From a virus, in IMG/VR virus record IMGVR_UViG_3300034072_002243, positions 1-50,070 of that record: a stretch of 50,070 nucleotides of DNA; one strand, given 5' to 3'. The notes below the pieces were generated by a model. That model was not told the DNA's origin, did no database searches, and saw only the letters and a list, made by a program, of their open reading frames with translations. The translations under genes and the position numbers were made by a program. This document shows positions 1 through 3,196 of this stretch, in pieces; the stretch's first letter is position 1, and each line of letters starts with the position of its first letter.

Positions 1-531
1 CTATGGCTCCAATTCGGTCCACCGCTCGGGATAGCCGAGCATCCTTTCGGATATCCGGGCAATCGCCTCGGGCGAATAGTTCAGCAAGGCCAGGCGTGTC
101 CAGAACCTCTGCTGGTAGCCTTTCAACTCCATGGACGCTTGTGTGGCCACTGAAAATTGACCGATCGTGAAACCATCGGTCTTGAGCGGCGTAGGCCACA
201 ATCCAGACTCTTTCCCGGTAGTGTTGGGCACCAACCGCCGCAGCCGGTATGCAATGCCATTCCGCATCATACCCGACCTCGGCCAGGTCGCCGAGAACAC
301 GTCCGAACCATCGGCCTGGTTGGTCGTCCGGGCCAGCAAGGAGGTTCCAGACGTTTTCCATGACTGCGTATAGGGGTCGTAACTCGCCAATAAGGCTGCA
401 AATTTCAGACCATAATCCCGAACGCTGACCTTCAATTCCAGCGCGGCGACCGGCTGTTGAAAGGTCTTGGCACGGGAAGCCGCCGGTGATGACGTCGACA
501 GCTGGAATTCCATCTGCTCGCAATCGCTCAT
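1..531 (-). CDS. Protein in an alternative frame of the methyltransferase gene (overprinted)
   Basis: A complete 176-residue frame lying wholly within the methyltransferase gene, same strand, +1 frame. Its ATG has a good ribosome binding site (GGGAG seven bases upstream). I recognise its features from memory as those of an uncharacterised phage/metagenome family often seen beside cytosine methyltransferases: SRAKTF near the N terminus, ASYDPYTQSWKTS, TWPRSGMMRNGIAYRL, GLWPTP, and a C-terminal GYPERWTELEP. Function unknown. Each of these family motifs lies directly over a methyltransferase motif (for example SRAKTF over FPCQD, SGMMRNGIAYRL over GYDAEWHCIPA). It may be a genuine double-coding gene or only a conserved shadow of the enzyme frame; the sequence alone cannot settle this. 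Confidence 0.5.
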   Translation of the reverse strand: MSDCEQMEFQLSTSSPAASRAKTFQQPVAALELKVSVRDYGLKFAALLASYDPYTQSWKTSGTSLLARTTNQADGSDVFSATWPRSGMMRNGIAYRLRRLVPNTTGKESGLWPTPLKTDGFTIGQFSVATQASMELKGYQQRFWTRLALLNYSPEAIARISERMLGYPERWTELEP

Positions 532-742
532 GTGTCAGCTCCCGCACATCGCGATAAAGAGGGACATCTGGCCATTGCTTGCGCAGCACATGACCGCAGA
601 ACGGCTCAATCTCGCAAAAGGCGACTGTCCGGAACCCTCCTGTCCGCTCGAAACCCAGAGAAAAGCCGCCGATGCCAGAGAACAGATCCAGCACCGAAAG
701 CTTGTGACGAGGCACTGCCTCGCAAACAAAGATTGACTCCAC
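1..742 (-). CDS. DNA C5-cytosine methyltransferase (partial, 3' end outside window)
   Basis: Transfers a methyl group from SAM to carbon 5 of cytosine in DNA. About 247 residues are visible before the frame runs off the window start. From a GTG at 742 (AGGA seven bases upstream) the motifs come in the family order: motif I DLFSGIGGF at residues 19-27, motif II FCEIEPF around 42-48, motif IV GGFPCQD with the catalytic Cys at about 91, RSGLW near 107-111, motif VI ENV at 129-131, motif VIII RERVWIVA. The last visible residues, DRIGAI, fit the start of the conserved GNAVVPQ block. A shorter frame (1-531) is fully nested inside it on the same strand, shifted by +1. Such enzymes are common in phages, as protection from host restriction or as regulators. 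The start codon is less sure than the identity. Confidence 0.85.
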   Translation of the reverse strand, partial: MESIFVCEAVPRHKLSVLDLFSGIGGFSLGFERTGGFRTVAFCEIEPFCGHVLRKQWPDVPLYRDVRELTHERLRADGIPAVDVITGGFPCQDLSTAGRRAGIEGQRSGLWSEICSLIGELRPLYAVMENVWNLLAGPDDQPGRWFGRVLGDLAEVGYDAEWHCIPAAAVGAQHYRERVWIVAYAAQDRWFHDRSIFSGHTSVHGVERLPAEVLDTPGLAELFARGDCPDIRKDARLSRAVDRIGAI

Positions 743-1195: not shown

Positions 1196-1283
1196 CCTTT
1201 ACAACGCGGAATTTCCGCACTATATTCAAATCATCGCCAAGGTGCGATGCGGGCGCCTCGCCGATACGGAGGCAGGAGACAAG
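1196..1283 (+). promoter_or_regulatory. Promoter-leader cassette, copy 1
   Basis: A -35 box TTTACA (1198-1203), a 17-bp spacer and a -10 box TATATT (1221-1226) make a good sigma70-type promoter. The spacer contains the palindrome GCGGAATTTCCGC, a likely operator. The transcribed leader to 1283 holds a short GCCTC/GAGGC stem just before the ribosome binding site AGGAGA of the gene at 1287. The whole 88 bp recurs at 3109-3196 with seven mismatches. Confidence 0.75.
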
Positions 1284-3108: not shown

Positions 3109-3196
3109 CCTTTACAGTGCGGGATTTCCGCACTATATTCAAATCATCGCCAAGGGGCGGTGCGGGCGCCTCGCCGGTACGGAGGCAGGAGACAAA
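3109..3196 (+). promoter_or_regulatory. Promoter-leader cassette, copy 2
   Basis: Second copy of the cassette at 1196-1283 (81 of 88 bases identical by eye). -35 TTTACA (3111-3116), 17-bp spacer, -10 TATATT (3134-3139). Here the spacer palindrome is longer, GTGCGGGATTTCCGCAC. Drives the gene at 3200 and probably no more, because a hairpin follows that gene. Confidence 0.75.

Follow-up and report, generated by a model that had tools for sequence, protein, structure and literature searches.

M.EcoHK31I is a C5 cytosine methyltransferase which recognises YGGCCR. Lee, Kam and Shaw are said to have found in 1995 that its small subunit is nested in the gene of the large subunit in another reading frame, and that both are needed for activity in vitro. 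M.EaeI is another naturally two-polypeptide C5 methyltransferase. In M.EcoHK31I the large subunit contains motifs I–VIII and X, and the small subunit only motif IX (PMC3404938). Complementation between fragments has been reported for M.SssI, M.HhaI and others (PMC3404938). A different split is found in M.AquI, where alpha contains motifs I–VIII and beta motifs IX–X.

The window examined here, the whole 50,070-nucleotide stretch of IMG/VR record IMGVR_UViG_3300034072_002243, is an incomplete contig of a tailed phage, on which genes for terminase, portal, tape measure and baseplate are found. A C5 cytosine methyltransferase, referred to as alpha, is encoded on the minus strand at 2..742, in a frame that is open from upstream of 742 down to the contig edge at 2 and has a possible GTG start at 742. 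It carries motifs I–VIII, among them motif IV with the catalytic cysteine (PCQD, 464..475), motif VI (ENV, 350..358) and motif VIII (RERVWIVA, 194..217), followed by the start of the motif X region (LSRAVDRIGAI). The contig ends inside this region, and the final ~25 codons lie past its edge. In L003, a complete locus and the closest relative of the window, alpha goes on as GAVGNTVQVQIPQLIGEAI. Continuation of alpha at the opposite end of the window, as in a circular contig, was considered and rejected since no GN-V motif X reads there. Alpha matches TIGR00675 and PF00145, the latter with an E value of 1.9e-41 over profile positions 2–167 of 324 only. It is similar to the monomeric enzymes HhaI, HaeIII and Dcm (PF00145) in motifs I, IV (PCQ), VI (ENV), VIII and X and in the fold of the catalytic domain, but differs from them in matching only the first half of PF00145 and in having motif IX out of frame. 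Elsewhere in the window, two 87-base direct repeats (1196..1282 and 3109..3195, 93% identical) each stand just upstream of a small plus-strand ORF, and are possibly a duplicated promoter or leader.

Within the methyltransferase gene lies a second minus-strand ORF of 176 residues, referred to as beta, shifted by +1 relative to alpha and running from an ATG at 531 to a TAG at 3..1. A first-pass annotation, made from the sequence alone, had described methyltransferase motifs and a second set of motifs superposed one base apart over about 530 bases, and every motif it quoted was recovered in its place. Conserved blocks of the beta alignment are ASYDPYTQSWKTS (349..387), WPRSGMMRNGIAYRL (241..285), which is partly a shadow forced by the invariant alpha motif GYDAEWHCIPA, and GLWPTP (187..204), at the start of a variable, probable target-recognition part. 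The C-terminal stretch SERMLGYPERWTELEP (4..51) lies directly over RKDARLSRAVDRIGAI of alpha. Between the conserved block and this C-terminal stretch, the betas of L241, L242, L087, L127 and L011 show WPTPxASD-like repeats, often several, perhaps representing modular target recognition. The start of beta has a GGAG Shine-Dalgarno sequence (539..542) 7 nt upstream of the ATG, and a TGA in the beta frame (535..537) 6 nt upstream. Because of this in-frame stop, beta must start at or after the ATG at 531, which argues for internal initiation over a frameshift further upstream.

Judged on the window alone, the openness of the +1 frame is no more than moderately unusual: the frame stays open in 0.5% of synonymous shuffles of the methyltransferase (P = 0.005; mean 3.8 stops). 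Relatives were collected by scanning IMG/VR with the methyltransferase protein only, and were reduced to 63 genes of less than 85% identity, the window included. Across these 63 non-redundant genes the overlap holds 2 stops in the +1 frame, compared with 315 expected from within-gene synonymous shuffles; when a fixed end replaces the ORF end, the figures are 8 and 272. No such depletion was seen over methyltransferase codons 1–50 of the same genes. The +2 frame has 621 stops versus 547 expected, and the antisense frames are likewise free of any comparable depletion. None of 31 ordinary C5 methyltransferases has an open +1 frame, and together they hold 348 stops in it versus 333 expected. At methyltransferase codons 50–72, 40 of the 63 genes have a +1-frame ATG that is equipped with a Shine-Dalgarno sequence, where 9.1 would be expected; this bears out across relatives the start and ribosome binding site that the first-pass annotation had assigned to the second frame.

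Synonymous sites behave in the same way. Among sequences sharing the amino acid, third-base identity at 4-fold sites is 0.32–0.34 before the overlap (residues 10–50; 0.28 in shuffles), rising to 0.57–0.70 at residues 111–190 and 0.82 at residues 225–247. The silent sites of the methyltransferase are frozen within the overlap only. Over residues 121–190 the identity of the +1 protein is 0.52 versus 0.28 in shuffles; that of the +2 reading is also raised (0.46 versus 0.28), as expected because all bases there are constrained. Mean identity at alpha codon positions 1/2/3 is 0.80/0.86/0.39 before the overlap, 0.73/0.83/0.57 in its first part, 0.43/0.56/0.52 in the motif IX segment and 0.77/0.88/0.37 from the GN of motif X onwards, a part that most betas no longer reach or in which they come to an end. 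This shift in the profile is the one expected of two coding frames. Within the window's own subgroup, identity over the last segment is 0.40 for beta and 0.30 for alpha, and the third positions of beta are the least conserved. From the profile and these identities it follows that alpha leads over motifs V–VIII, and that in the variable part and over motif IX the lead passes to beta.

These figures bear on the suggestion that the beta frame merely reflects, as a passive shadow, codon bias and the conserved residues of the methyltransferase. Several beta motifs do coincide with invariant motifs of alpha, which partly dictate them, and tblastn matches often stop where the conservation of alpha stops. 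A shadow would nevertheless have to produce the loss of +1 stops, the silent-site identity and the better conservation of beta in the last segment, while canonical enzymes are without an open +1 frame, and we consider it scarcely credible. Both the alpha and the beta frame are under selection. The tests of stop-codon depletion and synonymous constraint that had been proposed for this locus thus both came out in favour of a second coding frame.

The C-terminus of beta follows the consensus LNPxWVEWLMGFPxGWTxL and can be recognised as motif IX of C5 methyltransferases; the link is short and its lines of evidence are individually weak, and several of them agree. A sequence of the RRLTPRECARLMGFPD type is the textbook form of motif IX. 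A profile built solely from beta C-termini matches sequences of this type in 10 of the 31 ordinary methyltransferases, which come from random genomes, and does so in the frame of the enzyme itself. An 11th same-frame match (L329, FPDGHSEL) is marginal, as are four matches in other frames, and 16 enzymes go undetected. In nested methyltransferases the motif IX profile falls in the +1 frame in 19 of 19. On a Megaera plasmid the same LNPDWVEWLMGYPISWTD belongs to the frame of the enzyme itself and immediately precedes motif X; it can be aligned with HhaI 268–314. Against the PDB the beta profile has a single, weak match (E 1.4), to the motif IX stretch of DNMT3C. Coverage of PF00145 extends over positions 1–323 in ordinary enzymes versus about 2–168 in nested alphas. 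By motif content, alpha lacks motif IX and keeps motifs I–VIII and X, with motif IX in beta, which makes beta a part of the enzyme. The first-pass annotation was right that two conserved frames share this DNA; its assignment of the second frame to a separate phage family does not stand beside a C-terminus that reads as methyltransferase motif IX. No match to beta was found in Pfam or NCBIfam. It matches phrog_1008, ‘DNA methyltransferase’ (E 1.2e-11 for the window), as do 46 of 46 beta sequences; the label is silent on the overlap with another methyltransferase gene and on the motif IX half.

Structure models divide the two products along similar lines. The AF2 model of L003 alpha can be superposed on the catalytic domain of HhaI (175 columns, 2.2 A); its residues 198–238 are unstructured (pLDDT <50) and the motif X helix is ordered. 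The AF2 model of beta is confident over residues ~111–170 (pLDDT block means 81–93), encoded by the same DNA as the disordered alpha segment 198–238; residues ~112–165 attain 86–93. The first 110 residues of beta are poorly modelled, and the mean pLDDT is 65.6 overall. Foldseek of beta alone gave no match in the PDB; among viral models it retrieved mostly unnamed phage proteins and two methyltransferase-named ones.

All loci were translated in six frames and searched with profiles for the alpha core, the beta N-terminal part, motif IX and motif X. Wherever the beta N-terminal part was detected in viral contigs, phages, plasmids and bacterial and archaeal genomes, an alpha core overlaps it in the same +1 register (267 of 267 loci, a partly redundant set in which some contigs are counted more than once). 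Motif IX lies in beta and motif X in alpha in 242 of them, the others being cut contigs or frame-swapped variants. The arrangement was found in 22 of 398 sampled Pseudomonadota genomes (about 5%). Of the loci fetched for these 22 matches, those that are neither cut nor broken in frame have this geometry, and every classifiable match overlaps a methyltransferase in the +1 register. Sulfitobacter phage phiGT1 is a further carrier of the pair. More distant nested methyltransferases with beta-frame ORFs of up to 475 codons were observed in Pseudomonadota genomes (L281–L303), and are candidates for a cellular source or for EcoHK31I-like restriction-modification systems. No stand-alone beta was found in viral contigs, phages, plasmids, 84,980 species genomes or 398 whole genomes, so that the free-standing members which the first-pass annotation had raised as a possibility did not appear.

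It has to be considered whether beta is an independent overprinted accessory protein, such as an inhibitor or an anti-restriction factor, that merely shares its DNA with the enzyme. The first ~110 residues are consistent with this, as no homologue of them is known outside the overlap, neither Pfam nor NCBIfam matches them, and AF2 gives them no confident fold. The reading is put at a disadvantage by the C-terminal motif IX, which alpha is without, by the constant company of alpha, and by gp84 of Mycobacterium phage LoneWolf, the same protein with motif X as well; we hold it to be improbable.

In LoneWolf (L239, 1516–2533) the alpha protein gp85 stops after motif VIII, and gp84 consists of beta plus motif X, with an overlap of ~100 bases between the two genes. 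This resembles the split of M.AquI. Motifs IX and X are both in beta only in L239, L049 and L059. The opposite condition, motif IX in the alpha frame with beta-like blocks kept in +1, is found in Mycobacterium phage prophi104-2, Megaera, Gordonia phage Gudmit and L061–L063. In L240, L241, L061, L062, L063 and L075 the alpha frame contains motif IX as well as motif X, and the MMRNG and LPTP blocks are still readable in +1. In L004, L083 and L166 the tail of the methyltransferase (motif X) is shifted to the beta frame relative to the close relative L006, a difference that is either a natural frame swap or an assembly error. Such variants suggest that indels may trade tails between the alpha and beta frames. 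The HNH insertion of ShiLan, in mycobacteriophage methylases (PMC11855218), was considered as the same phenomenon and set aside, being a different out-of-frame element.

The LoneWolf-type genes also lend something to the proposal that ribosomes enter the +1 frame from alpha by a programmed frameshift, producing a fused chain, and not by internal initiation, in that a +1 shift after motif VIII would there yield a full-length enzyme; both frames are, moreover, open across hundreds of bases. In the common layout, by contrast, the shifted chain would gain motif IX and lose motif X. The conserved internal ATG with its Shine-Dalgarno sequence and the TGA just before the start of beta in the window also speak against frameshifting, which we rate as slightly more improbable than the accessory protein.

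The reading we favour, and think very likely to be correct, is that one C5 methyltransferase is made as two polypeptides, alpha and beta, from overlapping frames. Alpha (frame 0) would provide the SAM-binding and catalytic motifs I–VIII together with motif X. Beta (frame +1) would be translated from the internal ATG, by way of a ribosome binding site of its own, and would provide motif IX and probably target recognition. The two chains would then associate into the active enzyme, and the complementation of M.SssI and M.HhaI fragments makes such an assembly plausible. The enzyme presumably methylates the phage genome, for example as protection against host restriction. The loci in which motif IX is back in the alpha frame (L240, L241, L061–L063 and L075) count against this reading, since they go beyond simple subunit complementation.

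By published motif distribution, the pair in the window is like M.EcoHK31I, with motifs I–VIII and X in the large chain and IX in the small one. Nesting in a different frame is also common to the two, seen here as the +1 overlap of every locus and reported for M.EcoHK31I. The target-recognition part of M.EcoHK31I is predicted to be in the large subunit, whereas in the window family it is beta that is better conserved between motifs VIII and X. Similar to M.AquI, the window pair has two polypeptides with motif IX in the second. Unlike M.AquI, the family keeps motif X in alpha (L003 and 242 loci), and beta is nested almost fully in alpha.

As to origin, motif positions support overprinting that was reciprocal along the gene: the N-terminal part of beta would have arisen over the old catalytic core, and the stretch of alpha before motif X over the old motif IX. 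The first-pass annotation had imagined a family born by overprinting on the enzyme gene which then spread. Overprinting is retained here; the spread of a free second gene is unsupported, because beta is never found without an overlapping alpha. A wider reading, for and against which we lean equally, is of a large class of C5 methyltransferases, phage and bacterial and for the most part unannotated, formed by reciprocal overprinting, with beta as the whole target-recognition half and single indels swapping tails to give nested, AquI-like and single-chain forms.

Parts of this were already known, namely the layout (from M.EcoHK31I), the family itself (in PHROGs) and one annotated nested pair, gp56/gp57 of Paenibacillus phage Jacopo, for which RefSeq names each frame a DNA methyltransferase. 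Most phage records inspected annotate the alpha frame only, and none was seen to relate alpha to beta. A literature search on overlapping or split phage C5 methyltransferases, with subscription papers mostly outside its reach, found no description of this family. To judge by these searches, three points are new: that selection on both frames is demonstrated, that the second frame is identified as the half with motif IX, and how widely the arrangement occurs.

The arrangement proves common among phages and bacteria, and half of the enzyme often goes unannotated because gene callers penalise overlaps. Many phage ‘methyltransferases’ annotated alone would then be without motif IX, and could look inactive when cloned as annotated; co-expression of both frames is predicted to restore activity. 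With several hundred natural examples, the family is a good test bed for the evolution of two proteins on one stretch of DNA, because the known motifs of the enzyme tell the older frame from the newer.
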